Source: Actinoplanes oblitus | GTDB lineage: Bacteria > Actinomycetota > Actinomycetes > Mycobacteriales > Micromonosporaceae | DNA length: 64,000 nucleotides | Reading direction: 5' to 3' | Assembly: GCF_030252345.1 (NCBI RefSeq) | Contig: NZ_CP126980.1 | Span: forward strand, 7,331,501 to 7,395,500 | Shown here: piece after piece, positions 16,877-42,245 of the stretch | Layout of the letters: each line of letters begins with the position of its first letter | How positions within the stretch are numbered: position 1 is the first letter of the stretch | Program-made: the position numbers and the translations under genes | The notes under the pieces: model-generated | The model's input: the letters and a program-made list of their open reading frames with translations, nothing else | The model's database searches: none | Told to the model about the DNA's origin: nothing

Positions 16877-18019
16877 TCAGCGGTTGCGGAGAGTGCGGCC
16901 CAGCATGCCCATCGCCGAGGTCACGACGATCAGGATGGACATCGCCGCGTGCAGGGAGGTCAGCGTGATCAAGGCGCCCATCAGGGGCGGGCCGGCGAGG
17001 AAGCCCAGGTAACCGATCGCGGAGACGGTCGCGACGGCGCCGGCCGTGGTCATCGGATCGTCCGCGGCGCGGCTGAACGCCACCGGTGCGACGGGGGCGA
17101 TTCCCAGGCCGACCAGCGCGTATGCGACCAAGCCGGCCGCGGGGACCGGCACCGCGACGGCGAGGGCGGCGCCGGTGGCGGAGACCAGGGCACAGCCGGC
17201 CAACAGCCGGTGCGAGGGGAACCGGGACCGCAGCGGGTCGGTGGCCAGCCGCCCCACCACCATGCCCGCCGAGAAGGCGGCGAAGCCGGCCGCGGCCACC
17301 TCGCTCGGGGCGTTCCCGGCGTCATGGAGGAACACCGCACCCCAATCGTTGATCACGCCTTCGCCGAGCAGGGCGCAGAAGGCGATCAGGCCGAGCAGCC
17401 AGAGGAGTCGGGACGGCGTGGCCGGCCGGGTCCGCCCGGCTCGTCGCGCCGGCGCATCGGGCAGCAGCGCGACCGCCGCGACCGCGCACACTCCGGCCAG
17501 CACCGCGGAGGTCGCGGCGAAGTGTGCTGCCGGGCCGATTCCGGCACCGGCCGCCAGCGCTCCCACCGTGGCGCCGGCGATACCGCCGGCGCTGAGCATG
17601 GCGTGCTGACGGCCGAGCACGGGCCGGCCGACGGCACGCTCGATCAGCAGCCCCTGGGTGTTCATGGCGACGTCGACCGTGCTGTTGGCGAACGCGAACA
17701 ACGCCAGCGCGCCGGTCAGCACGGGCAGGGTCGGTGCCACCCCGATCAGGGGCAGCGCGGCGAGATAGACGCCGGTGGCGGCCAGCAGCGCGCGCCGGCT
17801 CCCCCAGCGGGCGACGATCACGCCGGCCGCGGGCAGGCCGGCCACTGCACCGGCGGTGAGCCCGAACAGGGCGACGGTGAGACCGGCCACCGAGAGTCCC
17901 AAGCGCTCCTGCACGGCCGGGACCCGGGTGGCCCAGGTTGCGAACACCGCACCGGTGACCAGGAAGAAGGTGCCGACCGCCGGGCGTACGGGCGTCGTGA
18001 CCCGGGCCACCGCGTTCAT
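16877..18019 (-). CDS. MFS transporter (12 TM), cluster exporter candidate
   Basis: 380 residues, nearly all hydrophobic helices with short basic loops; VTGAVFATWATRVPAVQERLG begins helix 1, and a typical MFS loop motif (ARWGSRRALL) follows helix 2. The fold resembles the YbjJ/fucose-type MFS group. The ATG at 18019 overlaps the preceding aminotransferase stop by four bases (ATGA), so the two are translationally coupled. This places the transporter at the end of the minus-strand arm of the biosynthetic cluster, where it may export the product or provide self-protection. Substrate not predictable. The 188 bp between it and the sigma operon hold nothing notable. Confidence 0.85.
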   Translation of the reverse strand: MNAVARVTTPVRPAVGTFFLVTGAVFATWATRVPAVQERLGLSVAGLTVALFGLTAGAVAGLPAAGVIVARWGSRRALLAATGVYLAALPLIGVAPTLPVLTGALALFAFANSTVDVAMNTQGLLIERAVGRPVLGRQHAMLSAGGIAGATVGALAAGAGIGPAAHFAATSAVLAGVCAVAAVALLPDAPARRAGRTRPATPSRLLWLLGLIAFCALLGEGVINDWGAVFLHDAGNAPSEVAAAGFAAFSAGMVVGRLATDPLRSRFPSHRLLAGCALVSATGAALAVAVPVPAAGLVAYALVGLGIAPVAPVAFSRAADDPMTTAGAVATVSAIGYLGFLAGPPLMGALITLTSLHAAMSILIVVTSAMGMLGRTLRNR

Positions 18020-19326
18020 CGGCCGGCCGTCACCGTGTCGGCCCGGGCCATGGACAGCAGGGCGTCCCGCTCGTCGACCAGGACCTTGTGGAAGACCTCG
18101 GCGACCCGCAGCATGACGGCCTCGTCGTTCGGCGGGCCGAGCGAGCTGAACGTCTGCCCGAGAACCAGCCGCCGCGCGCAGATCTCCTCGGCGACCGGGT
18201 ACTCCTCCGGCCGGTACCGGTGCGGACCGTCCGCGTGCCCGCACGTCCAAGGGCAGCCCCGGCCGTACCCCCGCATCTCCTGGAAGAGGGTCTGCGCCGG
18301 GACAGGCTGCGGCTGCCACCGCATGATGCCCAGGCCCTCGGCCCGAACCGCGCGCTCGACCGCGTCGCGGAACACCGGCACCGGGATGTCGGCGGCACCG
18401 AGGTCCTCGGGGCGCACCAGCAACGGATAGAAGAAATACACATGGGTACGGTCGGGCGGCACCACCGGCGGCCGGATGCCGGGCACTCCGTCGAGCGCGG
18501 CGGTAAGAGCGGCGCCATTCGCGATCCGCTGCCGGGTCATCTCCCCCAACCGGCTCAGCTGCGAGCCGGCGAACGCGGCGGCGAGAACGTCGATGCGGTA
18601 GTTCCAGCCCATCATCCGGGCGTTGTAGTCACGCCCCTGGCCGTCCAGTTCCTCCCCGAACATCATCACCCGGCGGGCCAGCCGCCACTGGTACTCGTCG
18701 CGGGTGGCGAACAGGCCGCCCTCGCCGAGAGCGGACAGGCATTTCGAGCCGTTCAGGCTGGAACCGCTGAGATCACCGAGGCCACCGGCGGGCCGGCCCC
18801 GGTAGGTGGCACCGTGCGACTGGGCGGCGTCCTCGATGAGGACGAGACCGTGCCGGCGGGCCACCTCGGCCAGCGCGTCGTAGTCGGCGGGTAGACCGTT
18901 CAGGTCGACCGCGATGATCGCCCGGGTCCGTGCGGTGATCCGCTCCTCGATCCGGGCCGGGTCCATGGCGAAGGTGGCGAGATCGGTGTCGACGAACACG
19001 GGGATGGCGTTGGCCTGCAGCACACACGAGGCCGACGCCAGGAAGGTGTCGGCCGGCACCAGCACCTCGTCGCCGGGGCCCACGCCGGCGGCCGCCACGG
19101 CCATGTGCAGCGCCGCGGTGCCGGAGTTCGCCGCGACGACGTACGGCATGTCACAGGCCTCGCCCCACGCCTGCTCGAGTTCCCGCACCGCCGTCATCGG
19201 CCAGTGCCACGGCACGGCCTCGTCCATCGCCCGCAGCACGGCCCGGCGGTCCTCCTCGACGACGTGCGGCCACGGCGCGAGGGCGCCCGGCGCCAGCACC
19301 GGAGTCCCTCCGTGTACGGCTAGCAT
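18016..19326 (-). CDS. DegT/DnrJ/EryC1/StrS-family PLP aminotransferase
   Basis: 436 residues. The family pattern is clear: NSGTAALHMAV cofactor loop, EDAAQSHGA, the Schiff-base lysine K195 in LNGSKCLSALGEGG, and YNARMMGWNYRIDVLAAAF. These enzymes aminate keto-sugars or cyclitols, using glutamate or glutamine as amino donor; AHBA synthase is an aromatic-forming relative. The start (ATG 19326) overlaps the epimerase stop by seven bases, and the end overlaps the MFS start. Pairing with a sugar epimerase suggests an aminosugar or aminocyclitol unit, but no glycosyltransferase or dTDP-sugar synthase lies nearby, so the substrate is open. Confidence 0.88.
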   Translation of the reverse strand: MLAVHGGTPVLAPGALAPWPHVVEEDRRAVLRAMDEAVPWHWPMTAVRELEQAWGEACDMPYVVAANSGTAALHMAVAAAGVGPGDEVLVPADTFLASASCVLQANAIPVFVDTDLATFAMDPARIEERITARTRAIIAVDLNGLPADYDALAEVARRHGLVLIEDAAQSHGATYRGRPAGGLGDLSGSSLNGSKCLSALGEGGLFATRDEYQWRLARRVMMFGEELDGQGRDYNARMMGWNYRIDVLAAAFAGSQLSRLGEMTRQRIANGAALTAALDGVPGIRPPVVPPDRTHVYFFYPLLVRPEDLGAADIPVPVFRDAVERAVRAEGLGIMRWQPQPVPAQTLFQEMRGYGRGCPWTCGHADGPHRYRPEEYPVAEEICARRLVLGQTFSSLGPPNDEAVMLRVAEVFHKVLVDERDALLSMARADTVTAGR

Positions 19327-20372
19327 GCGTCCGCTCCGGCGCCCGCGGTCTGCGGCACCGCGCGTACGGTGACGGCCGGTGTCCGGTGGAAGATCGCCGC
19401 GACGGTGGGCAGCTCGGGGTTCTCGCCGAGCAGGCCGGCGAGTTCCCGGATGCCGTCTGCCAGCGGCACCCTGGCCCGGAACCCGATTCCGGCCAGCTTC
19501 GAAACGTCGGCGACCAGCCGGTACGTGTCGCTGAGCACGGTGCGGTCGGGAACCAGCTCGGCCGGCCGCCCGGTTGCCGACTCGACCGCGTCGGCGAGCT
19601 GCCGCATCGACACCTCCTCCCCGGAGCCGAGGTTGTAGACCTCGCCCTCGGTGCCGGACTCGGCGAGCGCGACGAGACTGTCGCAGAGGTCCCGCACGTG
19701 GATGAAGTCGCGTGTCTTGCCGTCGACGTCTCCGACGACGGGAATGGCCCGCCGGTTGAGATGCCAGCGGAGGAATTGGGAGACCTCGCCACCGGCACGG
19801 CGCGGATCCTCACCGGGGCCGTAGACGACGAAGGACCGGCCGATCACCACGGGCAGTCCGATCGTCCGGTGCAGGCTGCGCAGCACGAGTTCGCCGGAGA
19901 GTTTGGAGGCGCCGTACGGCAGGAACGGCATCGTGCTGTGGTTCTCGGTCATCGGCGACTGCTCCGGTACGCCGTACACGATCGCCGACGACAGGTAGAC
20001 CAGCCGGCGTACCCCCAGCTCGGCGCACGCGTTGCCGACGTTGCAGGTACCGAGCCCGTTGGTCTCGAAATCGAACCGGGGGTTCTCCACCGACACCGTT
20101 CCGCTGGCGTTGCCGGCCAGGTGGAAGACCGTGTCGACGCCGTTCAGGGCGGCGCGTACCTGGGCGTGGTCGCGCAGGTCGGCCCGCCGCAGGGTCACCC
20201 CGTCGAGTTCGGACAACTCGGGCGGCAGGTCGGACAGGTCCACCACGTGCACCCGCAGCCCCCGTTCGGCCAGGGCTCGCACCAGGTGCCGGCCGATGAA
20301 TCCGGACCCACCGGTCACGGCCACGTCCGAGACGCCGGGCGGGACCAGCCTGGTCGCTGTCAGCTGGATCAT
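19320..20372 (-). CDS. NAD-dependent epimerase/dehydratase (extended SDR)
   Basis: 350 residues. Rossmann motif TGGSGFIG at ~20-27, then the acidic VVDLSD that selects NAD, the HLAGNASG stretch, and the YGASK active site with the upstream Ser (LSSAIVYG). The C-terminal half has the GSGEEVSMRQL pattern of the GalE/GDP-mannose dehydratase group. It probably oxidises and isomerises a nucleotide sugar or related alcohol, supplying a ketone to the DegT aminotransferase encoded next to it. Translation is coupled to that gene by a seven-base overlap. The substrate cannot be deduced. Confidence 0.85.
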   Translation of the reverse strand: MIQLTATRLVPPGVSDVAVTGGSGFIGRHLVRALAERGLRVHVVDLSDLPPELSELDGVTLRRADLRDHAQVRAALNGVDTVFHLAGNASGTVSVENPRFDFETNGLGTCNVGNACAELGVRRLVYLSSAIVYGVPEQSPMTENHSTMPFLPYGASKLSGELVLRSLHRTIGLPVVIGRSFVVYGPGEDPRRAGGEVSQFLRWHLNRRAIPVVGDVDGKTRDFIHVRDLCDSLVALAESGTEGEVYNLGSGEEVSMRQLADAVESATGRPAELVPDRTVLSDTYRLVADVSKLAGIGFRARVPLADGIRELAGLLGENPELPTVAAIFHRTPAVTVRAVPQTAGAGADAC

Positions 20373-20400: not shown

Positions 20401-21726
20401 TCAGTGGGCGGCGACCGCGATGTTCTGCAGGCCGCCGTGGCGTTCGACGCTGATCACGCCGTCGGCGCCGTCGGGGAAGAACCGGGCCAGGCAGCCGCCG
20501 GGCCGTCCGCCGATGACGAACGGGCCGAGGACCGGGGCGACCAGCCCGGTGGTGACCGAGCCGTCCTCGGCGCGGACCGACATGGGATAGCGCAGCGACT
20601 CCACCCGCTCCTGCGCGATGCTGTCGCCGGCGTGCACCGCGGCGCCGACTGCCGCACGCCAGGTCGCGGTGTCGGTGTCCCGGCCCATCAGCACCTTCTC
20701 CCCCTTCATGCCGATGGCGCCCTTGAGCAGGAACCGCTCCGGGCACGCCAGCAGCAGCTCGTCCAGCCGGTGCAGGGCGCCCTGGTAGCGGACCTGCTGG
20801 GTGCCGACGACGCGCGTCCAGGGCAGGTACCGCTGGACGAGTTCCCGGTCCTGGGCGCTCATGCCCGGCTGCCCGGCCGAGGCGACGGCCAGCAGCTTCT
20901 TGTTGGACAGCAGCGCCGAGGTCTGCGAGGCCAGCAACTGGCATCCGGCCGCGAGCGCCTCGCCCAGCGGCGACCAGTCCAGGCCCATCTCGCCCCACTC
21001 CTGCACGGTGAAATGCCGCAGCCCGAGCGGGTAACTCAACCGGCCGTCCCGGGTGAACAGGCCGTCCATGAGATCGGTCGGTTCGAAGAACTCGGCCCGC
21101 AGGCCGCGCCGGCGCAGATAGTCGACCTCTGAGTCGAAGTACCGGGTGCTGGTCACGCCCCGGACGAGGTCGGCGACACTGCCCACCAGGGCGACGGCAC
21201 GGTCGGTGCCCTCACGTGCGGCGGTCTCTTCGAACAGGTCGGCGCGGGCGGCGTACGGCCGGTACGCCGACAGTCCCCGGCCGGCGTAGATGTCGTCCAC
21301 CCAGGTGTCGCCGAGCAGCTGGGTCTGCACGGCCGCGCCGACACCACCGCCGACGTTGTACTCGATGAGTTTGACGCCGTCCGGGGTGACGAACGCGTCG
21401 GGGCGGGCGATGCACGCGGCGTACCGCCATTCCCACTCGTCGTCGCCGGTGAACAGCGGCGCGGTGACCGGATCGATGCCGAGGGCGGCGAGCCGCTCGC
21501 CGCGGTCGTTGCCGAGCCGGCGTGCCGCACGGAACAGCACGCCGAGGACGGCGGCTGCGGCGCTGTGCAGTTCCTCGTACGTGGCGGCCGGTAACAGCAC
21601 CGGATGCAGTGGTACCGGATTCGGCGGAAAGGGCACGTCGCGCATCCCGTGGCGCAGCCGGTCGCGAATCTCCTCGGGTTCGCCGGCCAGCAGGGGCGCG
21701 GGGGCCAGGATCTCACTGGACGTCAT
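20401..21726 (-). CDS. Glutathionylspermidine-synthase-like (ATP-grasp-type) ligase
   Basis: 441 residues. I set the start at ATG 21726 (MTSSEILAPAP) rather than the longer frame from 21810, because the extra residues look non-coding and would overlap the divergent gene. Two segments point to an ATP-grasp enzyme of the glutathionylspermidine-synthase/circularly permuted type: KLIEYNVGGGVGA resembles the LEYN metal/substrate motif, and FLLKGAIGMKGEKVLMG resembles the nucleotide-gripping Lys/Gly loop. Such ligases activate a carboxylate as acyl phosphate and form an amide with an amine. It lies 28 nt upstream of the epimerase on the same strand. The family assignment is by motif only. Confidence 0.55.
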   Translation of the reverse strand: MTSSEILAPAPLLAGEPEEIRDRLRHGMRDVPFPPNPVPLHPVLLPAATYEELHSAAAAVLGVLFRAARRLGNDRGERLAALGIDPVTAPLFTGDDEWEWRYAACIARPDAFVTPDGVKLIEYNVGGGVGAAVQTQLLGDTWVDDIYAGRGLSAYRPYAARADLFEETAAREGTDRAVALVGSVADLVRGVTSTRYFDSEVDYLRRRGLRAEFFEPTDLMDGLFTRDGRLSYPLGLRHFTVQEWGEMGLDWSPLGEALAAGCQLLASQTSALLSNKKLLAVASAGQPGMSAQDRELVQRYLPWTRVVGTQQVRYQGALHRLDELLLACPERFLLKGAIGMKGEKVLMGRDTDTATWRAAVGAAVHAGDSIAQERVESLRYPMSVRAEDGSVTTGLVAPVLGPFVIGGRPGGCLARFFPDGADGVISVERHGGLQNIAVAAH

Positions 21727-21803
21727 GGATCGATCGTGTCCGCGGTGCGTGCAGCTGCCGTGTAGCGCCGATGTAGCCGCCGGATTTGTTAGGGTGCGTG
21801 ACC

Positions 21804-22511
21804 ATGTCAACGCTTTTCGCCGACGTCGCCGCGCTACGGGCGAGCGTCGCCCGGTTCCAGGAGTCGGTGTCGGCGTTGCCCGACGCGGCGCTGTCCGAAC
21901 CGTCGCTGTTGCCCGGCTGGAGCCGCGGGCACGTGCTCACCCATGTGGCCAGGTCGGCGGATTCCCGCCGACGGCTGCTGGAGGCGGCCCGGCACGGCGA
22001 GGTCGGCCGGCAGTACGCCGATGAGGAGCACCGCGCTCGTGAGATCGAGGAGGGTGCCCGGCGACTGCCCGGGCAGATCCGCCGCGACGCCGTGGAGTCG
22101 CTGGATCGGCTGCTGACCGTGGTGACCGAGCAGCCCGCCGACCGGTGGGACACACCCGGCGTCTGGCTGGGTGTTGGTCCCCGGCCGGTGCGCCGGGTGG
22201 TGCCCAGCATGCGCCGCGAGGTGGAGTACCACCACGTCGACCTGGCAGCCGAGTACGGCCCGGACGACTGGCCGGCCGACTTCGTCGAGGCACAGCTCGA
22301 CCGGGTGACCGCGTCGTTCGGCGAGCGAGCCGACGCCGGGGCGTTCACCGTACGGCTGCCCGGCCGGGATCTGCGGGTGGGCGACGGCGGGGACCTCGTC
22401 GTGGCCGGTGAACCGGCGCCGATGCTGGCCTGGCTGACCGGCCGTGGCGACGGCTCGGGACTGCGCACCTCGCCACCGGGGCCGCTGCCAGCGCTACCCC
22501 CGCTGTCCTGA
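21804..22511 (+). CDS. DinB-fold maleylpyruvate-isomerase-type protein, probably mycothiol-dependent
   Basis: 235 residues, start ATG 21804 (MSTLFADVAALRASVARF). The N-terminal four-helix DinB-like bundle has the metal-ligand pattern GWSRGHVLTHVARSAD, and the C-terminal part matches the maleylpyruvate isomerase accessory domain. The family uses mycothiol as cofactor in actinobacteria, for isomerisation or thiol transfer. It is divergent from the ATP-grasp gene (77 bp between starts) and overlaps the 3' end of the LanB gene by 18 bp. It is the only plus-strand gene inside the minus-strand arm. It may open a thiol adduct or act in detoxification. Confidence 0.75.
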   Translation: MSTLFADVAALRASVARFQESVSALPDAALSEPSLLPGWSRGHVLTHVARSADSRRRLLEAARHGEVGRQYADEEHRAREIEEGARRLPGQIRRDAVESLDRLLTVVTEQPADRWDTPGVWLGVGPRPVRRVVPSMRREVEYHHVDLAAEYGPDDWPADFVEAQLDRVTASFGERADAGAFTVRLPGRDLRVGDGGDLVVAGEPAPMLAWLTGRGDGSGLRTSPPGPLPALPPLS

Positions 22512-25034
22512 ATCGGGCGTGGTGAAGACGGCGTAGCGGATCTCCGCGGTGCGGCCGCCGGCCCCGTCGTCGAGCCACAGCTCGTCCGGGCCGGGGAGCA
22601 TCTCGCCGAAGGTCAGCGGTTCCTCCGGCGGCAGGCCGGCCGCGGTCCGGGTGACCTGGCGCACCAGCAGCGGCGAGTCGAGATCGCAGTAGACCGGCTT
22701 CGGTTCGCCGGAACAGCGCAGATACAGGTGCCGGGGCAGACCCAGCCGCGCACGCAGCCCTTGCACGCGGGCGAACGCCTCCGGTTCCTCGGCCACCGAG
22801 GCCGCGGCGACCGCACCGGCGTCGATCCGCCAGGACTCGCGGCGCAGGACGACGTCACCGACCTGAATACGCGGGATGTGCCGCCGGCCGGTGCCGTGCA
22901 CGGCCGCACCGGCGGTGTCGGTGGGGAATCCGAAGACGCTGAACGGGTTGCGCCCGAGCATCGGCCAGGCGTGCGGCGGCGCGATCAGGCGCAGCGCCGG
23001 GCCGGTGGGTGGGCGCAACCGCAACCGCTCACCGTCGTGGCAGACGTCCAGGTCGGCAAGCCGCAGCCGTTCGGCGGGCGGCCGGCCGGACCGGTCGAAC
23101 GCCTCGACGTCGCGGCACTCGAGGTCGAGCCGTGGGTACGTCTTGTTGCGGTGGTGCTGGGTCACATCGGCCAGCTGCTCGCCCGGCGCCAGCAGACCGG
23201 CGTAGTGCCGCAGCGCCTCGGCGCGGTACTCGGGGAAGGCGGACCCCACGAACGGCGCGACGGAGCCGTGGCTCAGGTGGTCCTCCATCGCGTGCAGGTC
23301 GCCGACGACCAGGCGGAACCGCCCGCCGGCCAGGTCCTGTGCGGATCTTGCCGCGATCATCAGGTCGGGGTTGCAGACGGCCGGCTCGTTCAGCCCGTAC
23401 CGTTCGACGAGTCGCCGTACCGTGGCCCGCTGCACCACGTGGACCCGCCGGTCGTCGGTCGCCGCGGGCAGCAGGGCCGCCTCCAGCGCGTCGCCCATCT
23501 CGGCGACCGTGTCGTCGATGCGCTGGTAACCCTCTGCCAGCTCGCCGAGGTCGTCGAGGTAGGCGGCGACGTAGTCGGGAACGGGCACGGCCCGCCCGGC
23601 GCCGAACCGCCGGGTGAACCAGCCGGCCAGCAGGTCCCGCTCCAGCTTCAGCCGCCACCGCGGCCGCAGCAGGAACATGTCGTAGAGCAGGGCGAGATCT
23701 CCGCTCATCCGGTCGGACAGGGGCCGGCCGATGGTCAGTTCGCGCGGGGTGCAGACGCAGTGCTCGTGAAAGACGCTACGGTCGCTGTAGAAGCCACTCC
23801 CACCGTGCGCCGCGGGCAGGCCGGTGGCCCTGGTGAATTCCGCCTTGAGGCGGGCGAGCGCCTCCGGGCGGCCGGGCGGCGGTGCTTCTTGAAGATTGTG
23901 TACGGCCGCGACGAGCCCGGCACAGATCGCGTGGGCCGGGTGCCCGGGATCCACGCCGGCCAGCATCTCGCGCACCCCGGCCAAGGAGTCATCGGCACCA
24001 TACGGCAGCTCGGCCTCGAGGTGGACCGCCCCGGCGTCCGCCAGATGCCGCAGGGCCGGCCACGGATCACCGGTCAGCAGATCCGACATCCGCCGTACGC
24101 TCGTGGCCCCGTCACAGAGCTCGAAGACAGCCGCCTGATGCGGGGTGAGATCGATCGGCGGGTCCACCCGCAGCGCCGTCCGCGCGTCGGTGCTGCGTCG
24201 GCCCTGGTCGATGCTCAGCACCCGCAGCCTGCCCTCGTTCACCCGCGCACCCGGCACCGGCCGCGGGCACAGGTGCTCGCGCAGCAGCGGGTCGCCGAAG
24301 ATCGTCCGGGCCACCGCCTCGGCGGCCCAGCGCGCTAGCCGCGTGTGCCGTTCCAGCCCGGCCGGGACCCAGCTGACACCGGTGTCACCGGTGGTCACCC
24401 GGGCCGTGGCGAGCGGCCCGAAGTGGCTGGTCGTGTCGTTCTTCGCGCAGACCCGCTGAAGGTAGCGGACCAGGGTCGCGATGTTGTTGCGGTCGTTCTT
24501 GCGGGCCGGCCGGCGACCCAGCTCCGGGTCATCCAGCCAGCCGATCAGCCGCGGGTAGGCCTGGTCGTTGGAGACCAGCAGCATGTCGCGCAGCTCCGGG
24601 GTGTTCCGGAACCGGTCGATCACCTTCTGTCCGGTGCGGTCGCAGCTTTCGGCGTACACCCGCTCAAGTTCCTGCTCCGCGTCCGCACGCCGCCGCAAGG
24701 CGGTCTCGAACTGCTCCAGAAGCGTCTGGAACCGGGGTGTCGGCGCCTCCGGGCGCGGGGTGTAGGCGCGGCGGCGGTGCATCGCGCGCAGGATGTGCCG
24801 GTCGGCGGTGTTGCCGGCGGACTGGCGCAGCAGTGGGTCGCCCGCCCGGCCGGCGAGTTCGTCCAGGGCCGCGTCGGCGGCGAGCCGTTCAGCGGCCGCG
24901 TCGGTGACGGCCTCGTCCCGCAGCCGGGTGAGCCAGTGGAAGGGGAAGCCGGCCAGGCGCATCACCGCCACCGACGCGGGCCGCCACGACAGCGAACCGG
25001 CCGGAGCCGAGGTCATGGTCATGGTCGTGGTCAT
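22494..25034 (-). CDS. LanB-type lantibiotic dehydratase (tRNA-dependent), elimination domain absent
   Basis: 846 residues. AAGGAGACCTG precedes ATG 25034, fixing the start; this ATG overlaps the MFS stop by one base. The protein matches the N-terminal LanB family, which transfers an amino acid from aminoacyl-tRNA to a Ser/Thr side chain or peptide C-terminus. Recognisable segments are the Arg/Asn-rich RKNDRNNIATLVRYLQRVCAKNDTTSHFGPL, and the later NPDLMIAA and LVVGDLHAMEDHLSHGS. The ~300-residue C-terminal elimination (SpaB_C) domain of full-length LanBs is missing, and no separate gene for it lies nearby. A stand-alone LanB of this length is typical of peptide aminoacyl-tRNA ligases. No precursor peptide gene was found. 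Confidence 0.75.
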   Translation of the reverse strand: MTTTMTMTSAPAGSLSWRPASVAVMRLAGFPFHWLTRLRDEAVTDAAAERLAADAALDELAGRAGDPLLRQSAGNTADRHILRAMHRRRAYTPRPEAPTPRFQTLLEQFETALRRRADAEQELERVYAESCDRTGQKVIDRFRNTPELRDMLLVSNDQAYPRLIGWLDDPELGRRPARKNDRNNIATLVRYLQRVCAKNDTTSHFGPLATARVTTGDTGVSWVPAGLERHTRLARWAAEAVARTIFGDPLLREHLCPRPVPGARVNEGRLRVLSIDQGRRSTDARTALRVDPPIDLTPHQAAVFELCDGATSVRRMSDLLTGDPWPALRHLADAGAVHLEAELPYGADDSLAGVREMLAGVDPGHPAHAICAGLVAAVHNLQEAPPPGRPEALARLKAEFTRATGLPAAHGGSGFYSDRSVFHEHCVCTPRELTIGRPLSDRMSGDLALLYDMFLLRPRWRLKLERDLLAGWFTRRFGAGRAVPVPDYVAAYLDDLGELAEGYQRIDDTVAEMGDALEAALLPAATDDRRVHVVQRATVRRLVERYGLNEPAVCNPDLMIAARSAQDLAGGRFRLVVGDLHAMEDHLSHGSVAPFVGSAFPEYRAEALRHYAGLLAPGEQLADVTQHHRNKTYPRLDLECRDVEAFDRSGRPPAERLRLADLDVCHDGERLRLRPPTGPALRLIAPPHAWPMLGRNPFSVFGFPTDTAGAAVHGTGRRHIPRIQVGDVVLRRESWRIDAGAVAAASVAEEPEAFARVQGLRARLGLPRHLYLRCSGEPKPVYCDLDSPLLVRQVTRTAAGLPPEEPLTFGEMLPGPDELWLDDGAGGRTAEIRYAVFTTPDSGQRG

Positions 25035-33210: not shown

Positions 33211-33227
33211 GACACCGAGGACGTGCC

Positions 33228-35432: not shown

Positions 35433-36238
35433 CCGAGAACGAGAACTGGACCCGCGTCGAGTGCGATGCCGGCGGCGGTCAGGCCGACCAGGACCTGCTG
35501 CGGCGGCTCATCGACGGCGACGTCGCGGTGGTGCGGTTGCGGGGCCTGCTGCCGGCCGCGGAGTTCGCCGCGAACCGGGAGCGGCTGCGCCGCATCTTCT
35601 CGGACGCCACCACGACGCGATACGTCAACGGCGCGCTCACCACGATCGGCCCCTACCTGGCGAAGTACCTGTCTCGCCCGGACGACTACTTCACCGCCGC
35701 GCGGGCCGCCGAGAACCGGCTCGACGAGGTCTCGTTCGACCTGAGCGCCCAGGTCCGGCAGGCCCTGACCAAGGAGTTCGGCCTGCACAGCCTGCGGCCC
35801 GCCGAGGAGCCGGACGGGCGCCGGTACGGCGACGCCGTGGTCCGTGTGCACGCCGACGGGGTGAGCAACCCCCTGCACAACGACAACATCATGCGCGACG
35901 CCCGGGACACCGGCCTGGCGCTGGCCGGTCTGCGTCACCAGCTGAGCTGCGTGGTCTGCGTAGAGGAGTGCGACGAAGGCGGTGAGCTGCGCATCTATCA
36001 GCGGTCATGGCGGCCCGAGGACGAGGCTTTCAAGATCGACGGCGGTCTCGGGTACGACGCCGGCGTGGTCGCCGGCGCACCGGTCCACACGTTCCGCCCG
36101 CGTGCCGAGGACGTCTACCTGATCAACCCGACCCATTACCACGAGATCGAACGCGTCCACGGCGCCGACCGGACCACTCTCGGCTTCTTCGTCGGCTTCC
36201 CCGGCGAGTCACTCACCGACGCCGTCGTCTGGGGGTGA
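35429..36238 (+). CDS. 2-oxoglutarate/Fe(II)-dependent oxygenase (prolyl-hydroxylase-like)
   Basis: 269 residues, translationally coupled to the glutaminase (ATGA at 35429, with GAAGGAA upstream). The iron triad is readable: a proximal HxD, most likely H150-N-D152 in NPLHNDN (H141-A-D143 is a second HxD), and distal His in THYHEIERV, followed ten residues later by the 2OG-binding Arg in DRTTLGFF. This is the double-stranded beta-helix oxygenase pattern. It should hydroxylate or otherwise oxidise an unactivated carbon of an amino acid or peptide. A second, unrelated 2OG oxygenase follows 97 nt later. Confidence 0.75.
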   Translation: MTENENWTRVECDAGGGQADQDLLRRLIDGDVAVVRLRGLLPAAEFAANRERLRRIFSDATTTRYVNGALTTIGPYLAKYLSRPDDYFTAARAAENRLDEVSFDLSAQVRQALTKEFGLHSLRPAEEPDGRRYGDAVVRVHADGVSNPLHNDNIMRDARDTGLALAGLRHQLSCVVCVEECDEGGELRIYQRSWRPEDEAFKIDGGLGYDAGVVAGAPVHTFRPRAEDVYLINPTHYHEIERVHGADRTTLGFFVGFPGESLTDAVVWG

Positions 36239-36335
36239 TCGGCGCACTACACCGGCACTGAACCGCGCGACCACACCGGCTGAACCGGCCGGCTCCAGAG
36301 TGGAACGCAAAGCCCCGTCAGACCTTGGAGGCCTC

Positions 36336-37076
36336 GTGTCATCGTCCCCGATCAGCATCCTGTCGCAGACCGACTTCAACGGCGACCCCCTCGACGAAGA
36401 GCTGCTGCAGCGCACCTTCCGGCAGCTCATGGACGAGCACGGCTACGTGCTCATGTGCAACGTGCCGGACTCCTTCGACCAGGTGAAGTTCTGCCGAGGG
36501 CTGGGCGGCTTCGTGCCCAACTACACCGGCGCCGTGGTCGGCGACGTGCGCCCCGAACCCGGCATGGACGACGTCTACCACGCCGGCAACACCCGCCCGC
36601 TCACCCCGCACAGCGAGGGCTACGACTTCACCGTCCTCCCGCCCCGCTACATCGCGCTGTGGTGCGTCACGCCCGCCAGCGGCCCGGGCGGCGAGACGAC
36701 GCTGGCCGACACCGCGCCGTGGGTGGCCGAACTCGACGAGCGCGAGCGCGAGCTGCTCGAGGGCACCGAGTTCGAGTGGAAGACCACCGAGGGCGTCAAC
36801 CGGCTCGGTCTCGACCTGCACACCAAGCACCCGGTGTTGGAACAGCACGCCGACGGCATGATCGTGCGGTTCTCCTGCAACAACCTGGTCCGGGCCGACG
36901 ACGACGAGGTGGTGCCGCTGCAGGAGCGGTGGAAGGAAAACTTCTACCGCGACCAGATCAGCATCGACTACCACCCCAACGACATGCTGGTCTGGGACAA
37001 CTGGCGGCTGCTGCACGCGCGTAACGCGTTCTCCGACCGGTCCCGGCACCTGCGCCGGATCCAGATCGCGAACTGA
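36336..37076 (+). CDS. TauD/TfdA-family 2-oxoglutarate/Fe(II) oxygenase (clavaminate-synthase-like)
   Basis: 246 residues. The start is GTG 36336, with TTGGAGG five bases upstream; the longer frame from 36300 has no such signal. The iron-binding motif H92-S-E94 lies in LTPHSEGYDF, where Glu replaces the usual Asp as in clavaminate synthase-like enzymes. The distal His and 2OG Arg are in LLHARNAFSDRSRHLRRIQI. The central GGETTLADTAPW matches the TauD core. It probably catalyses hydroxylation, cyclisation or desaturation on an amino-acid-derived substrate. It is eight nt from the ATP-grasp gene. Confidence 0.85.
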   Translation: MSSSPISILSQTDFNGDPLDEELLQRTFRQLMDEHGYVLMCNVPDSFDQVKFCRGLGGFVPNYTGAVVGDVRPEPGMDDVYHAGNTRPLTPHSEGYDFTVLPPRYIALWCVTPASGPGGETTLADTAPWVAELDERERELLEGTEFEWKTTEGVNRLGLDLHTKHPVLEQHADGMIVRFSCNNLVRADDDEVVPLQERWKENFYRDQISIDYHPNDMLVWDNWRLLHARNAFSDRSRHLRRIQIAN

Positions 37077-37084
37077 GGACCGGC

Positions 37085-38344
37085 GTGATGCGGATCGACG
37101 CATTCGTCCAGGTGGGTGCCACCCGTGACGGGCTGGACGCCTACCTGGACTGCGCCCGCCGCCGAGGGCTGCCGGCGGTCCTCGTCGAGACACCGGCGTA
37201 CCTGCGGTGGCGGCGGGTCCTCGGGCGCCGGCCGTTCGACCTGGAGGTCGGCGTGACCGAACCGGGTGATCCGGAGCACGTACGCGCCGCCCTCGCCGCC
37301 CAGGGCCTGGCGCCGGTGCTGCTGCTGGCCGGTTTCGAACGGTACGCGCCGAGCGCATTCGCGGCCGCCCGAAGCCTGGGTGTCGCGCCCTGGCCGGCCG
37401 TGGGCCGCGACTTCGCTCCGCTCGACAAGCTCGGGCAGCGTGCGGCGCTGGCCGGGCGGGCGCCGGAGGTCCGGCAACCACGGCACGTGCGGTGGAATCC
37501 GGTCGCCGGTCTCCCGGCGGCCGCGGCCGGCCTGCGATTCCCGCAGGTCGTGAAGCCGGCGGACGGTGGCGGCGGGCTCGGGGTGATGTTCGTCCGGGAC
37601 GCGCGGGAGCGGGACTCGGCCCTGCGGTCGGTGCTGCGGACGCCCAACTACGACGGCAGCCCGTTCTCCGCGATCCTGGTGGAGGAGTACGTCGAGGGTC
37701 CCGAGTTCTCGATCCAGGGGATCGCGCACGACGGCGTCGGCACGGTCCTGACGACGTGCGAGAAGTTGACGGCGCACGAGCCGGTGGGCACCGACCCGGG
37801 GCTGCGCGGGTTCCGGGAGCTGGGGCACATCGGCACGCACGGGGCGTACGCCGATCCGGCGTTCGTCGATCTGGTGTCCCGCTGCCTGGCCGCGACCGGA
37901 TACCGGGAGGGCCCCTTCCACGTCGATGTGATCCGCAGTGAGCGGGGGCCCGAGTTCGTCGAGATGGGATTCCGGCTCTCCGGCGGTGGCCTGGTCGGCC
38001 TGGTCGAGCGGATCACCGGTGCCGACTGGGCGGAGTGGACGTTCCGCGCCCATCTCGGGGAGGGTGTGCCGCCGCTGCCGGCGCCGCGGGCGATGGTGGT
38101 CGGACAGGCCAACCTCATCGACGAGCGTGAGTTTATGATCGCCGAGCTGCTGGGTAGCCAGAACCCCGACGTGCGGACCGTACGCGCCACCGCACCCGGC
38201 GACGAGGTGCCGGCCGAGGATGTCCCCCGGCTCGCCTCGGACCGCCAGCGTCACGTCGGCGTGGGCCGCGTGATCGTCGGCGGCCGCCTCGGTGACGTGC
38301 GGACCGCGTTGCACAGGTGTCTGGCCGGCCGGCTGGCCGCCTGA
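37085..38344 (+). CDS. ATP-grasp amino-acid/peptide ligase
   Basis: 419 residues, GTG start behind GAGGACC. The ATP-grasp signature is clear: VVKPADGGGGLGVMFV (Gly-rich loop), ILVEEYVEGPEFSI, the metal-binding EMGFRLSGGG and an N-terminal Rossmann-like domain. The organisation matches the L-amino-acid ligase/carnosine-synthase group, which joins an amino acid to another amine through an acyl phosphate. With panD in the operon, a beta-alanyl peptide bond is a reasonable guess. A second ATP-grasp-type gene lies in the minus-strand arm, so two ligation steps are possible. Confidence 0.85.
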   Translation: MMRIDAFVQVGATRDGLDAYLDCARRRGLPAVLVETPAYLRWRRVLGRRPFDLEVGVTEPGDPEHVRAALAAQGLAPVLLLAGFERYAPSAFAAARSLGVAPWPAVGRDFAPLDKLGQRAALAGRAPEVRQPRHVRWNPVAGLPAAAAGLRFPQVVKPADGGGGLGVMFVRDARERDSALRSVLRTPNYDGSPFSAILVEEYVEGPEFSIQGIAHDGVGTVLTTCEKLTAHEPVGTDPGLRGFRELGHIGTHGAYADPAFVDLVSRCLAATGYREGPFHVDVIRSERGPEFVEMGFRLSGGGLVGLVERITGADWAEWTFRAHLGEGVPPLPAPRAMVVGQANLIDEREFMIAELLGSQNPDVRTVRATAPGDEVPAEDVPRLASDRQRHVGVGRVIVGGRLGDVRTALHRCLAGRLAA

Positions 38345-38397
38345 CCCGCGACGTACCGGCCGGGCCACGGCCGGCGAGGAATCGAGGAGACCATGGC

Positions 38398-39330
38398 ATG
38401 ACGGTTCACGAGAGCGCCGTCCGCCAGCGCGTGCCCCGGCGCCCGCTGGCGGACGGCGCCGCTGCCCGGCTGGCCTGGCGCGAGACGCGGCCCTGCGTAC
38501 AGGTGATCTTCGCCCTGCGCTTCCTGGCGGGCGCCCTGCTCGCCGGCGGAACGGTCTCGGGCTGGCGGCTGCTCACCGCCGGGGTCGGCTGGTCGTGCGT
38601 GGTGGCGGCGATCTACCTGCACAACGGCACCACCGACGTCGTGGAGGACCGCCGCAACGGTTCGGCCCGGCCGCTGGCCACCGGGGAGCTGCCCCTGCCG
38701 GCAGCCCGGGCCATCGTCCGCGGCCTGGCGGTCGCGGGCCTCACCATCGCGGCGCTCGCCGATCCGCGGGAGGCGCTGCTCGCGCTGGCCATGCTGGCGC
38801 TCGGCTTCGCCTACTCCAGCGGCCGCGCGCCGCTGAAGGGGTCGATGCCCGGTTTCGCGCTGGTGGTGCTCGGCGGAGGAATGCTCACCTACACCGCCGG
38901 CGGTCTCACCACGTCGGGCGGCCCGACCCTCGAGTCGGCCGTTTTCGCCCTGTTCCTGTCGGCTTGGATGGCGGTAGCCGGGTCCTCGAAGGACCTGTCC
39001 GACACCGACGGCGACCGGTCCGCCGGACGCCGGACCCTGCCCGTCATGTTCGGCCAGGAATCGGCAGCCCGAATGATCGCCGCCGGGACCCTGACGGTGG
39101 GCGCGCTCTTCGTGGCGGTCGCGGTCCATGTCGGCGACAATCTGATCTGGTACGCGCTGCCACTCGCCGCCGGCGCCGCGGTCACCGCCGCGACGCTGCT
39201 CCGCACCCGCAGAGCGACGCTGCGCGCCGACCGGCGTCTCCCCTACCGATCCTTCATGGTCACCCAATTTCTGGTGCACGGCACGGTCCTCGCGGTGTAT
39301 GCCGCGACGGCCGGTCTGCTTGTCGCATGA
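38398..39330 (+). CDS. UbiA-family membrane prenyltransferase
   Basis: 310 residues starting at ATG 38398 after CGAGGAG. It is strongly hydrophobic with eight to nine predicted helices. Two Asp-rich loops for Mg-diphosphate binding are visible: NGTTDVVEDRRNG after the second helix, and SSKDLSDTDGDR before helix six. The family transfers polyprenyl groups to aromatic acceptors or lipids. It is the last gene of the biosynthetic operon and would prenylate a membrane-associated intermediate, unless it supplies a quinone. There is no terpene or aromatic synthase nearby, so donor and acceptor are unknown. Confidence 0.85.
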   Translation: MTVHESAVRQRVPRRPLADGAAARLAWRETRPCVQVIFALRFLAGALLAGGTVSGWRLLTAGVGWSCVVAAIYLHNGTTDVVEDRRNGSARPLATGELPLPAARAIVRGLAVAGLTIAALADPREALLALAMLALGFAYSSGRAPLKGSMPGFALVVLGGGMLTYTAGGLTTSGGPTLESAVFALFLSAWMAVAGSSKDLSDTDGDRSAGRRTLPVMFGQESAARMIAAGTLTVGALFVAVAVHVGDNLIWYALPLAAGAAVTAATLLRTRRATLRADRRLPYRSFMVTQFLVHGTVLAVYAATAGLLVA

Positions 39331-39395: not shown

Positions 39396-40451
39396 ATGGC
39401 AGTGCACCACGACGAGGAACAGACGTCGAAACCTGAGGTCTCCGCCGGGCAGCGCCAGGAGATTTATGAGGCGATAGTCCGCGAGCTCAAGGCCGCCGAC
39501 AGCGCCCTTCTCCTCACCTGGGAGCGCAGCGAGCAGCTAAGACGGCAGGTGGACGCCGTGCTCGACGACGTGGACTCGCTGATCCGCGGCGGCGTCCCCG
39601 TCCCCGAGCCGCAGCTGAGCGCAGAGATCGGCCAGACCCGCAGCAGCGACGGCACGCACCCGCTCGACTCCTGGTTCGCCGCCGACGTCCTGTTCTCCTG
39701 CGCGCTTCGCGTCCTCACCCGCGACTGTGACGACCGTCGGCAGGTGGTCGGCATCGCCCTGCACCTGAACCGGTCGTTGATGAACCGGATGGGACATGCC
39801 GCCACCGCGTACGTCGACGCGCTGTTGCAGCGCAACCTGCGCGCCCAGCGCGAGGAACGCAAAAGGGTGGCCCGGGAGATGCACGATCGGGCCGCGCACA
39901 GCGTCGGCGTCGCCCTGCAGAGCCTCGAGCTGCACGAGCTGTACTCGACGTCCGGGCAACCGGGCCGGGCCGGCAACCAGCTGGCCACGGCACGCCAGAG
40001 CCTGCACGAGGCCATCGCCACCATCCGGGCCATCGCCACCGAGGTCCGCGACGCGCTCGGTGGCCGCGGCCTCGGCGAAGCCCTGACCGCGTACGTGGAG
40101 CGCTTCGCCGGCCCGCACATCAGGACCGGCGTGACCATCACCGGCGATCCCGGCCGGCTCGACCCCACCGTGGCCGAGGAGCTCTACCTGATCCTGCGGG
40201 AAGCCGTCTACAACACGTTCCTGCACGCCGACGCCGCCCAGCTCGACGTCCGGATCCGGGTCGACGAGGACACGGTGGTCGCCGAGGTGACCGACGACGG
40301 CGCCGGGTTCAGCCCGCGGCACGCCTCCGGGATCGGATTCGCCTCGATGCGGGAGCGGTTGAGCGCGCTCGGCGGCCGGCTGGAACTCGTCAGCCGCCCC
40401 GGCCGGGGCGCGAGCGTCCGCGCGATCGTCCCGCTGGGGTCGCGTCCGTGA
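39396..40451 (+). CDS. Cytosolic sensor histidine kinase (HisKA_3/NarL type)
   Basis: 351 residues without transmembrane helices. An N-terminal helical region of ~140 residues shows no known sensor family. The dimerisation segment EERKRVAREMHDRAAHSVG has the phospho-acceptor H163, followed by an HATPase domain with N-box (LREAVYNTFLHA), and Gly-rich GAGFSP and GIGFASMRERL. Because it is soluble, it must sense something inside the cell. It overlaps the response-regulator gene by four bases (GTGA), so the two are co-translated. It lies at the 3' end of the cluster and may control it. Confidence 0.9.
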   Translation: MAVHHDEEQTSKPEVSAGQRQEIYEAIVRELKAADSALLLTWERSEQLRRQVDAVLDDVDSLIRGGVPVPEPQLSAEIGQTRSSDGTHPLDSWFAADVLFSCALRVLTRDCDDRRQVVGIALHLNRSLMNRMGHAATAYVDALLQRNLRAQREERKRVAREMHDRAAHSVGVALQSLELHELYSTSGQPGRAGNQLATARQSLHEAIATIRAIATEVRDALGGRGLGEALTAYVERFAGPHIRTGVTITGDPGRLDPTVAEELYLILREAVYNTFLHADAAQLDVRIRVDEDTVVAEVTDDGAGFSPRHASGIGFASMRERLSALGGRLELVSRPGRGASVRAIVPLGSRP

Positions 40452-41089
40452 CCGACCTGTCGGCCGAGCAGATCAGCGTCATCCTGGTCGACGACCACGC
40501 CCTCTTCCGTGAGGGCCTGCGGCAGTTGATCACCCACCAGACCGAGATCGCCGTCCTGGCGGAGGGTGCGAGCGGTTCGGAAGCGGTCGCCCTGGCCCGC
40601 CGCCTGAACCCCGACCTGGTCCTGCTCGACGTGGAGCTGCCCGGCCAGGGCGCGGCCAAGACCGTCGAACAGATCCGGGAGGCGGTGCCGTCGGCCCGCA
40701 TCATCATCCTCACCATGCACGACGACCCGCGTCTGGTGCAGAAACTGCTCAGCTGCGGAGCGTCCGCGTTCCTCACCAAGACCATCGGCCGCGACCAGTT
40801 GCTCGCCGCGATCCGGTCGGTGCACCGCAACGCCGACACCGTGCTGGTGTCGGTGCAGCGCTCACCGTTCGCGGTACCGGCGCCGCCGCCGGGCACGGGT
40901 GTGCTGTCGGCCCGTGAGCTAGAGGTGCTGCGCCTGCTCGCCCAGGCCCTGTCGAACGCGCAGATCGCCGACCGGCTCTTCATCACCGAGGGCACCGTGA
41001 AAAGGCACCTCACCAACGTGTACGCGAAACTGCAGGCGGTGTCCCGGGTGGATGCGATCCGCAAGGCCACCGCCGCCGGCCTCATGTGA
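40448..41089 (+). CDS. NarL/LuxR-family response regulator
   Basis: 213 residues, GTG start overlapping the kinase stop. Receiver domain with acidic pocket VDDHALF (D15, D16) and phospho-accepting D61 in LVLLDVELPG, followed by conserved T/K positions (LTMHDD, LTKTIG). A linker leads to a LuxR-type helix-turn-helix at ~148-213 (LSARELEVLRLLAQALSNAQIADRL, TVKRHLTNVYAKL). It is the cognate partner of the upstream kinase. The end overlaps the convergent acyltransferase gene by eight bases. Confidence 0.93.
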   Translation: MTDLSAEQISVILVDDHALFREGLRQLITHQTEIAVLAEGASGSEAVALARRLNPDLVLLDVELPGQGAAKTVEQIREAVPSARIIILTMHDDPRLVQKLLSCGASAFLTKTIGRDQLLAAIRSVHRNADTVLVSVQRSPFAVPAPPPGTGVLSARELEVLRLLAQALSNAQIADRLFITEGTVKRHLTNVYAKLQAVSRVDAIRKATAAGLM

Positions 41090-42245
41090 CCGCCGTCGCC
41101 TCCCGGTGCGCCGACGCGCCCGGCAGCCCGGCCAGCATCCGGTCGAGATCCAGCTCGACCGGACCGCGCAGACCGGCGCAGTCCCCCGGCAGATCGGTGC
41201 GCGGTGGCCGCCCGGCGTCGTACGGATAGACGACCCCCAGCCTCCCGCCCGGATCCGCCGTGATGACCGGATGATCACGCAGGAACGAACGCACCGCCGG
41301 GGTGTCGCGGCGAGGCACGATGAGCAGCCGCTTGTCCCGGAAATGGGTGCCCGGCAGCACGATCTCCGGGCGGAACTTGCGTTTGAACGAGAACAACCCC
41401 TCGCTGATGAACGGCCGCGAACCCGACATCTCCGCGTACGGAATACGCTGCCCGGCGGCCCACTCCAGCAAGAGGTGGTACAGCAGCAGTTGAGCGCCGT
41501 CACGATAATGGCGGGAGTCCCCGTCGAGCACACCGGCGAGCCGCACGTTGAGCGTGTCCTCGTGCACCCGGCACAGCACCCCCGCGACCCGTTCGCCGTC
41601 ACGTCGCAGGAAGAACAGCCGGCCTCGCCGGAACAGGGGATGCAGGGCGACCGCTCGGCGCTCGCTGCGTACCCATCCGTGATGGCGGGCCGCCATGGTC
41701 GGCACATGCATCCGGTCGTAGAAGAACTCGAAATCGGACTCCCGCTCGCCGATCTCGAGCCTCCAGTCATGCCGTTTGAGCGCGCGCCTGATGTTCTCCC
41801 GGTCCTTGCGGCCGAACCGGGCCAGACAGTCCTCCGGCGCGTCCGGCAGCGGCACCCGGTAGTGCACCCGCAGCGGCGCCACGAGACACGCTCCAAGACC
41901 GAGCCCGCCGACCTGACCGGCATAGGCGCCGACCAGGAGCAGATCGGCCCGCTCCGGCGCGGCAGCCCACCGATGCGGCCGTAGCAGCCGGCCACCGGAG
42001 CGCCGCACCCGCGGCGCGCCCGCCCGCTCGCCCTGACGCCACATCTCGGCCGGCGCCAGCACATGGGAGCGGCCGTCGGCGACCCCCGCATAACTGATCG
42101 ACGGGCCGTCGTCGCCGTGACTGTCAAAACCCACCCCCGAGCCCGGCAGTACGTCATAGGCGCGCCGCACACCTCGCGCGGCCGCGGAGGTCCCGTTGTT
42201 CCACCAATAGTCGACGTCCGCGAGAATGCGCTCGAAACGGAACAC
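41082..42245 (-). CDS. GNAT/FemAB-like acyltransferase (CelD/BcsL type)
   Basis: 387 residues, GTG start at 42245 with GGGAGGT four bases upstream. The protein has the two-lobed GNAT arrangement of FemAB/CelD-like transferases: CLARFGRKDRENIRRALKR in the first lobe, and an acyl-donor-binding stretch LLLYHLLLEWAAGQRIPYAEM in the second, followed by FSFKRKFRPEI. Relatives transfer amino acids from aminoacyl-tRNA or acyl groups from CoA. Given a LanB and a tRNA deacylase in the cluster, tRNA-dependent transfer is conceivable but not shown. A truncated IS5-type transposase begins 104 bp upstream, so this gene may be the cluster edge. Confidence 0.7.
   Translation of the reverse strand: MFRFERILADVDYWWNNGTSAAARGVRRAYDVLPGSGVGFDSHGDDGPSISYAGVADGRSHVLAPAEMWRQGERAGAPRVRRSGGRLLRPHRWAAAPERADLLLVGAYAGQVGGLGLGACLVAPLRVHYRVPLPDAPEDCLARFGRKDRENIRRALKRHDWRLEIGERESDFEFFYDRMHVPTMAARHHGWVRSERRAVALHPLFRRGRLFFLRRDGERVAGVLCRVHEDTLNVRLAGVLDGDSRHYRDGAQLLLYHLLLEWAAGQRIPYAEMSGSRPFISEGLFSFKRKFRPEIVLPGTHFRDKRLLIVPRRDTPAVRSFLRDHPVITADPGGRLGVVYPYDAGRPPRTDLPGDCAGLRGPVELDLDRMLAGLPGASAHREATAVT

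Follow-up and report, generated by a model that had tools for sequence, protein, structure and literature searches.

A two-module gene locus of Actinoplanes oblitus for a probable peptide-like compound made without assembly-line enzymes

Gene content of the locus

The locus described here (positions 16877-42245) lies in a 64,000-nucleotide stretch of DNA, termed the window, of the Actinoplanes oblitus genome (9.81 Mb, one contig; NZ_CP126980.1, positions 7,331,501 to 7,395,500) and comprises 22 genes that form two divergent arms about an AfsR-like regulator (see Table 1). The probable product of about twenty of these genes is a small, peptide-like molecule assembled from unusual amino acids with no assembly-line enzymes involved. 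Two gene groups are distinguished: module A (TauD, PanD, DUF6002, GNAT/FemAB, P355 and AT3, often also ATPgraspL and MFS2), which recurs across actinobacteria, and cassette B (PP-loop, ATPgraspR, GATase, WelO5-like hydroxylase and YbaK-like deacylase), which one relative carries in the absence of module A.

The reading frames of all 22 genes are intact; a gene call by codon-position GC content recovered 20 of them, the missed MFS1 being backed by a Pfam match and the missed PP-loop gene by homologues. PanD through the response regulator form a compact series in the right arm, in which neighbours overlap by 4 nt or stand no more than 65 nt apart. The antisense MDMPI-like gene, which overlaps the 3' end of LanB by 18 nt, interrupts the left arm. 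Pfam lists no condensation, AMP-binding, PP-binding or ketosynthase (KS) domain across the 22 proteins, so that the locus does not qualify as a nonribosomal peptide synthetase (NRPS) or polyketide synthase (PKS) cluster, in agreement with the original prediction from the sequence; nor is there a LANC_like or SpaB_C match in the 22 genes that would place it among the class I lanthipeptide clusters. The enzyme families named in that prediction, including two major facilitator superfamily (MFS) exporters and two oxygenases, were nearly all recovered by family searches; DUF6002, P355, AT3, DegT, the short-chain dehydrogenase/reductase (SDR) and the GNAT/FemAB-type gene at the right end come in addition to those in its title and rationale.

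Table 1. Genes of the locus (window positions) and the family evidence for their assignment; PLP, pyridoxal 5'-phosphate; 2OG, 2-oxoglutarate; PEARL, peptide aminoacyl-tRNA ligase.
Gene	Assignment	Position	Strand	Evidence
MFS1	MFS transporter, last gene of left arm	16877..18019	-	PF07690 68.9 bits; overlaps DegT by 4 nt
DegT	DegT/DnrJ aminotransferase (sugar-type PLP)	18016..19326	-	PF01041 253 bits
SDR	NAD-dependent epimerase/dehydratase	19320..20372	-	PF01370 174 bits
ATPgraspL	Probable circularly permuted ATP-grasp ligase, module A	20401..21729	-	Family matches PF14403 weakly
MDMPI	Mycothiol-dependent maleylpyruvate isomerase-like, membership doubtful	21804..22511	+	PF11716/PF07398
LanB	Probable tRNA-dependent amide ligase, PEARL-like, 846 aa	22494..25034	-	PF04738 only, 103 bits
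MFS2	MFS transporter, module A	25034..26281	-	PF07690
tRNA_edit	YbaK/ProX-type aminoacyl-tRNA deacylase, cassette B	26291..26791	-	PF04073 86.7 bits
AfsR	AfsR-like SARP/NB-ARC regulator	26991..28820	+	PF03704, PF00931
PanD	PanD-type aspartate 1-decarboxylase, module A	28950..29411	+	TIGR00223 166.4 bits, cut-off 106
DUF6002	PLP fold-type II, threonine/cysteate-synthase-like, module A core	29413..30792	+	PF19465 661 bits
P355	NAD(P) oxidoreductase, malate/lactate dehydrogenase fold, module A core	30802..31869	+	Fold; no Pfam match
AT3	Class III aminotransferase, module A	31897..33210	+	PF00202 278 bits
PP-loop	PP-loop ATP pyrophosphatase family, cassette B	33207..34700	+	Homologues, GGGKDS/CxxC motifs
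GATase	Class II glutamine amidotransferase, N-terminal Cys, cassette B	34710..35432	+	PF13230 E 0.00088
WelO5-like	WelO5-related Fe/2OG oxygenase, probable hydroxylase, cassette B	35429..36238	+	PF22814 62 bits, HND
TauD	TauD/clavaminate-synthase-like Fe/2OG oxygenase, module A	36300..37076	+	PF02668 99 bits, H[S/T]E
ATPgraspR	ATP-grasp carboxylate-amine ligase, cassette B	37085..38344	+	PF13535
UbiA	UbiA prenyltransferase	38341..39330	+	PF01040 106 bits
HK	Sensor histidine kinase	39396..40451	+	PF07730, PF02518
RR	LuxR-type response regulator	40448..41089	+	PF00072, PF00196
GNAT6	GNAT/FemAB-type acyl or aminoacyl transferase, module A	41082..42245	-	PF13480 (Acetyltransf_6)

Module A and cassette B in other genomes

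DUF6002 was sought in 350 genomes of the same family and found in 37, the window genome counted. A profile search of genome contigs confirmed 120 DUF6002 loci, and the best 80 of these (numbered with L; genomes with G) were compared over stretches of up to 21 kb, 66 of them at least 15 kb long, by tblastn with all 22 window proteins (E<=1e-8). Matches were found for P355 at 50 loci, LanB at 29, GNAT6 at 28, PanD at 21, MFS2 at 18, ATPgraspL at 12, TauD at 10 (60-77% identity), AfsR at 8, AT3 at 6, RR at 4 and HK at one. DUF6002 and P355 form the core pair of module A; both were joined by PanD, GNAT6 and TauD at 7/80 loci (L058, L061, L064, L069, L080, L082 and L111), and it is because these loci carry all five genes that the grouping is regarded as beyond chance. 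At L069, and at L036 outside the 80, the same five genes are present together with ATPgraspL and AT3. The AT3 homologue in L036 was 62% identical; of the six AT3 matches among the 80 loci, four lie near DUF6002 at 50-58% identity (L058, L064, L069 and L080), and the remaining two (30% and 39% identity) are doubtful. None of the 80 loci matched PP-loop, GATase, WelO5-like, ATPgraspR or tRNA_edit within the analysed stretches, and UbiA, DegT, SDR, MFS1 and MDMPI were likewise scored at 0/80 (a single 28% match of SDR was noted at L052).

GNAT6 (28 loci) and KS (29 loci) never co-occurred and LanB accompanied KS at 26 of the 29 KS loci, which divides the DUF6002 loci into two architectures, one NRPS-free and the other of NRPS-PKS-LanB type. 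Fused asparagine synthase (AsnB) genes were present at 14/80 loci, with GNAT6 in all 14. The window is of the NRPS-free type yet bears LanB; LanB and GNAT6 are also found together at L062 and, approximately 5 kb apart, at L059. The motif stretches of the adenylation domains in NRPS genes adjoining DUF6002 gave no confident substrate code. A further recurrent cluster type is seen at L039, L049, L102, L113 and L126, where DUF6002 is accompanied by amidinotransferase-, KSIII- and O-methyltransferase-like genes (names by eye) and a P450, in part also by a thiamine diphosphate (ThDP) decarboxylase.

The five genes of cassette B form one operon in G291, a genome of the same family that is not among the 37 DUF6002 positives (identities: PP-loop 57%, ATPgraspR 52%, GATase 61-62%, WelO5-like 60%, tRNA_edit 55%). 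In the window, the right arm has four of them, and the fifth, tRNA_edit, is the first gene of the left arm, before MFS2 and LanB. Two cassette members are rare: GATase was found in 2/350 genomes of the family (window genome counted), and the PP-loop family in 3/394 genomes of the class, 8/397 of the order (own genome counted in both) and 7/160 from the genus of G291. The PP-loop family comprised 649 proteins at E<=0.001 (window counted, among 7996 candidates scored), with GGGKDS and CxxC invariant across 25 rows; the window protein had no Pfam match, no PDB relative by profile and no PHROG, a first scan of genome contigs found no relative, and a plasmid search gave one match (Methylobacter, 43%). 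In eight other PP-loop contexts (G255, G377 and G388 left out), an ATPgraspR homologue (47%) adjoins at L054 only, and in the remaining seven none of the other cassette B genes does. Relatives at L137, L138 and L155-L157 adjoin glutamate-mutase-like, aminoacyl-tRNA-synthetase-like or HMGL-like genes (names by eye); the position of the PP-loop gene at L155-L157, beside cobalamin-dependent glutamate-mutase-like subunits and ATP-grasp-/aminoacyl-tRNA-synthetase-like genes, represents another use of the family.

The coherence of the two arms was addressed with ATPgraspL, which was sought in 73 genomes: the host's own, 36 other DUF6002-positive genomes of the family and 36 same-genus genomes (20 listed as DUF6002-negative, 16 merely not among the positives). 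It was present in 4/36 of the other positives versus 1/36 of the same-genus genomes (one of those listed as negative); the four positive genomes each have one copy that starts 2.5-12.2 kb from the DUF6002 start (G031 has an additional copy approximately 1.1 Mb off). Left-arm ATPgraspL, MFS2 or LanB stand in one run with right-arm genes at L036, L069 and L062, the single run of the latter (L062/L170) comprising LanB, a luciferase-like oxidoreductase (LLM), ATPgraspL, GNAT6, MFS2, DUF6002, PanD and AsnB; in the G291 operon, the left-arm tRNA_edit gene is joined to four right-arm genes. Since both modules draw genes from both arms in the window, the arms are not independent, and their treatment as a single cluster in the original prediction withstood the comparison. 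Among the candidates scored, the closest named PP-loop protein (70%) and LanB (60%) are both of Dactylosporangium sp. NPDC050688, though on different short contigs, for which reason the composite may exist elsewhere.

Folds, motifs and family assignments of the enzymes

The DUF6002 protein (AF2 model, pLDDT 86.6) has the fold of the PLP fold-type II/threonine synthase superfamily with a candidate PLP lysine, and its structural matches in the PDB include the cysteate synthase CapA2. A curated cysteate synthase assignment was rejected, the sole TIGR03844 match of the genome being another gene, below the cut-off. P355 has the fold of the lactate/malate dehydrogenase superfamily; its only NCBIfam match is to the pyrroline-2-carboxylate-reductase family, below the cut-off, and the carboxylate-binding Arg171 motif of these dehydrogenases was not evident by eye in the P355 alignment, where residues were compared without superposition. 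PDB sequence searches gave nothing useful for DUF6002 and only weak Rossmann-domain matches for P355. Membership of the two proteins in the L-2,3-diaminopropionate (Dap) synthase families SbnA/SbnB was discarded as well, with no NCBIfam match for DUF6002 and no SbnB-family match for P355.

At 2/80 loci, P355 and DUF6002 are fused in a single open reading frame (ORF), namely at L086 8846-11335 (Microtetraspora sp. NBRC 16547, 829 codons) and L109 8714-11341 (Virgisporangium aurantiacum, 875 codons); the C-terminal halves are DUF6002 (Pfam 632 and 618 bits, respectively) and the N-terminal halves align with the window P355 at 41% and 40%. Based on these fusions, P355 and DUF6002 are argued to act in succession, and nothing else gives as good an indication of which step comes first. 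PanD is above its equivalog cut-off (see Table 1), and a second PanD gene, 64% identical to the cluster copy, lies elsewhere in the host genome. The H[S/T]E motif of the TauD-like enzyme was present in 12/12 aligned rows.

LanB is matched by PF04738 alone (residues 146-791) and thus has, like the PEARLs, the N-terminal domain without the elimination domain; the single sequence had no PDB match below E 0.07. A LanB search gave 32 matches (window counted, among 7993 candidates scored), of which 22 others had at least 33% identity. In an alignment of 14 of the 34 available LanBs from DUF6002 loci, the window protein was 26-30% identical to 13 and 37% to that of L062, for which all comparisons together gave 35-37%. 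Loci with two LanBs, each 34-36% identical, and no NRPS gene between them were present in 2/164 genomes from the genus of S. griseosporeus; these loci (L166 8762-18410, L168 9362-18140), in which the LanBs stand around ureohydrolase- and PHP-like genes (by eye) and are followed by an MFS gene, are a separate LanB cluster type. GNAT6 matches the broad Acetyltransf_6 family only, its profile had no PDB match, and it may be tRNA-dependent. The window ATPgraspL had no Pfam match, whereas 3/15 aligned family members match CP_ATPgrasp_2 (PF14403, best E 0.0058); the PDB matches of its profile, mostly designed repeat proteins, were taken as artefacts.

Among the cassette B proteins, the GATase starts with MCR in the window and in G291, i.e. 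with the N-terminal cysteine of class II glutamine amidotransferases, its PF13230 match being below the curated cut-off. A split asparagine synthase, as a reading of the split amidotransferase that had been predicted, was rejected: PP-loop bears no profile similarity to AsnB (hhalign probability of 2% versus 13 aligned AsnB proteins), and GATase had no profile match to AsnB either. The halogenase WelO5 has HxG in place of HxD. In the WelO5-related proteins of the window and the G291 operon the HxD motif is present (HND), so that halogenation of the WelO5 type was rejected and the enzyme is probably a hydroxylase. A second WelO5-like gene of G291, approximately 14 kb from its cassette B (L150 162-947), has lost HxD. 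ATPgraspR is too distant from the dapdiamide synthase DdaF for membership (NF041595, 35.7 bits, cut-off 840), as is tRNA_edit from the Cys-tRNA(Pro) deacylase YbaK (TIGR00011, 56.7 bits, cut-off 153.25), although it belongs to the PF04073 superfamily. A tRNA-Pro(GGG) gene is located outside the cluster at window 54850-54924 (-); no link to the YbaK-like gene was shown.

Proposed pathway and competing readings

The reading preferred here, to which we would give an even chance, is that of one NRPS-independent pathway of two recurrent modules with an AfsR-type regulator, in which a beta-substituted alanine is made and amino-acid units are joined by stand-alone ligases. The modules, folds, motifs, co-occurrence and P355-DUF6002 fusions were observed; all substrates, all reactions and the self-protection are inferred, as follows. 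The probable reaction of DUF6002 is loss of phosphate from O-phosphoserine, or from a homologue of it, followed by addition of a nucleophile; the resulting beta-substituted alanine would, as a first guess, be L-cysteate; P355 would carry out a redox step on the substrate or product of DUF6002, PanD would decarboxylate, AT3 then convert the amine to an aldehyde and the TauD-like enzyme hydroxylate. The building block may be cysteate/taurine, beta-alanine or diaminopropionate. Cassette B would make or activate a second amino-acid unit, with carboxylates activated by the PP-loop and ATP-grasp enzymes, ammonia provided by GATase and a hydroxyl group introduced by the WelO5-like enzyme. As the tRNA deacylase travels with amino-acid-activating genes, its gene company suggests that it clears tRNA mischarged with the second unit, which would amount to self-protection. 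The units might be joined from aminoacyl-tRNA by the PEARL-like LanB and the FemAB-like enzyme and at the expense of ATP by the ATP-grasp enzymes, and the product would be exported by the MFS proteins. An amino-acid-derived, probably amide-forming product and tRNA-linked chemistry, both predicted originally, are supported; the beta-alanine block of that prediction is less certain, as the substrate of PanD may be a different acid.

Several observations weigh against this pathway. Threonine synthases outscore CapA2 as structural matches of DUF6002, one of them aligning over 348 residues, more than CapA2, and DUF6002 matches no NCBIfam model at E<=0.01, TIGR03844 included. Decarboxylation is no fixed step, since 44/80 loci, among them 22/29 KS loci and 10/28 GNAT6 loci, have neither PanD nor a ThDP enzyme in the analysed stretch, and a TauD-like enzyme next to a taurine-making step would be odd. 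No cassette B gene was seen at any of the 80 DUF6002 loci within the stretches analysed, as noted above. The gaps and the weak statistics of the PanD/ThDP and P355/LLM alternations, described in the next paragraph, count against this pathway as well. UbiA, DegT (nearest NCBIfam model PseC, score under its cut-off) and MFS1 are without comparative support; UbiA, from which prenylation of the same product had been predicted, is in neither recurrent module, and may be an addition since Dactylosporangium sp. NPDC050688 is not among its 15 homologues (window counted).

A wider and rather unlikely generalisation would make DUF6002 the founder of a large, undescribed class of actinobacterial pathways whose starting compound is a beta-substituted alanine (e.g. 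cysteate) derived from phosphoserine, with PanD and sulfopyruvate-decarboxylase-like enzymes as interchangeable decarboxylases and P355 and LLM as interchangeable redox steps; the window would be a composite in which LanB joins small molecules without NRPS or scaffold peptide, and in which the producer is shielded against the amino-acid mimic that it makes by a YbaK-type deacylase. PanD (21 loci) and a two-subunit ThDP decarboxylase (15), whose subunits at related loci resemble ComDE-type (sulfopyruvate decarboxylase) enzymes below the cut-off, never occurred together (Fisher p 0.008 over 80 loci), and neither did P355 (50) and LLM (17; p 1e-9 over 80 and 5e-10 over the 66 long loci). On the other side, the PanD/ThDP exclusion reaches only p 0.053 over the 66 loci of at least 15 kb, 13/80 loci have neither P355 nor LLM, three pair P355 with ThDP, and the p-values are inflated because the loci are related to each other. 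In a DUF6002 tree built quickly from 79 rows (the window and 78 loci; the fusions L086 and L109 absent, presumably via the length filter of the clustering), the informative independent pairs numbered only ~2/8 for P355/LLM and ~1/7 for PanD/ThDP, none being significant; all point toward exclusion, too few for power. The window groups with L069 and L073 in this tree, with a support of just 82%.

A possible, though less probable, alternative to the preferred pathway is that PanD yields plain beta-alanine (or, with AT3, malonate semialdehyde), as do KirD/AurD, while DUF6002 and P355 make another block, e.g. L-2,3-diaminopropionate in the manner of SbnA/SbnB, for a dapdiamide-like peptide amide. 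PanD scores above the equivalog cut-off and keeps the catalytic residues, and a cluster-borne PanD as beta-alanine source has precedent (PMC9361827, PMC10779116); SbnA/SbnB homologues are described as marking Dap-containing products, dapdiamides among them (PMC3179956). P355 accompanies DUF6002 at 29/29 KS loci, 22 of which lack a decarboxylase, and this pairing, together with the fusions, makes DUF6002 and P355 resemble a synthase of two enzymes; the alternative gains slightly from the fusions and from the loci without a decarboxylase. The weak DdaF match of ATPgraspR points the same way. The dapdiamide pathway is a small-peptide route with ATP-grasp ligase, amidotransferase, 2OG enzyme and MFS exporter, all of which the window has too; in contrast, the window lacks an SbnA/SbnB family match and adds PanD, LanB, FemAB-like, PP-loop and YbaK-like genes. 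In kirromycin/aurodox biosynthesis, which shares the cluster-encoded PanD, the decarboxylase feeds an NRPS module that the window does not have (PMC9361827).

It appears improbable that separate clusters with different products, be they the two arms or module A and cassette B, have become neighbours by chance. Each group does occur alone (cassette B in G291, module A at many loci) and they were jointly present at 0/80 loci in the stretches compared; their genes are, however, interleaved in one compact run in the window (28950-41089), the fifth cassette B gene heads the other arm ahead of MFS2 and LanB, and a single strain supplies both of the closest named proteins, LanB and PP-loop, though from different contigs. 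Even less credible is a pearlin pathway with LanB acting on a scaffold peptide, as the known PEARLs do (PMC12945691): the domain content of LanB would agree with it, but no scaffold-like ORF was seen by eye in the inter-arm gap 26780-27000, the sole gap inspected (short ORFs elsewhere were not examined).

Under the preferred pathway, LanB finds its nearest functional parallel in the sna/threopeptin cluster of Stackebrandtia nassauensis, where a LanB-type protein forms an amide bond with no scaffold peptide identified (PMC10769383); there it is an amide former within an NRPS-PKS cluster, whereas here this role is predicted and NRPS and PKS are absent. GNAT-fold, possibly tRNA-dependent enzymes in small-molecule clusters are likewise represented by the FemABX-type VlmA, DhpH, PacB and Orf11 (PMC12945691), unlike which GNAT6 matches only its broad family. 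The CapA2/ComDE system has parallels in the fold of DUF6002 and in the ComDE-like subunits at related loci, with the difference that DUF6002 has no sequence-level match to the curated cysteate synthase model. The open-access literature searched contained nothing that links DUF6002 to biosynthesis, nor PanD with LanB, a cysteate-synthase cluster, or PanD with AsnB, and the locus could not be linked to a described pathway. Nearly every enzyme is of a known family; the novelty lies in how they are combined and in the DUF6002 module with the alternations and the fusion seen in it. If the proposed chemistry is correct, DUF6002 and its alternating partners would offer a handle for NRPS-free peptide-like metabolites without the domains that cluster detection often uses, LanB-type tRNA-dependent ligation would extend to free small molecules, beyond the ribosomal peptides and NRPS hybrids, and the tRNA deacylase would be a candidate self-resistance marker for amino-acid-mimic antibiotics.

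To the right of the cluster, a lower-GC stretch (61-66%) contains a gene (window 44656-51177, +) for a 2173-aa DUF4062-NACHT-HEAT-repeat STAND/NLR-like protein with a PADLOC HEAT-ARM_XIII match, possibly a defence gene.

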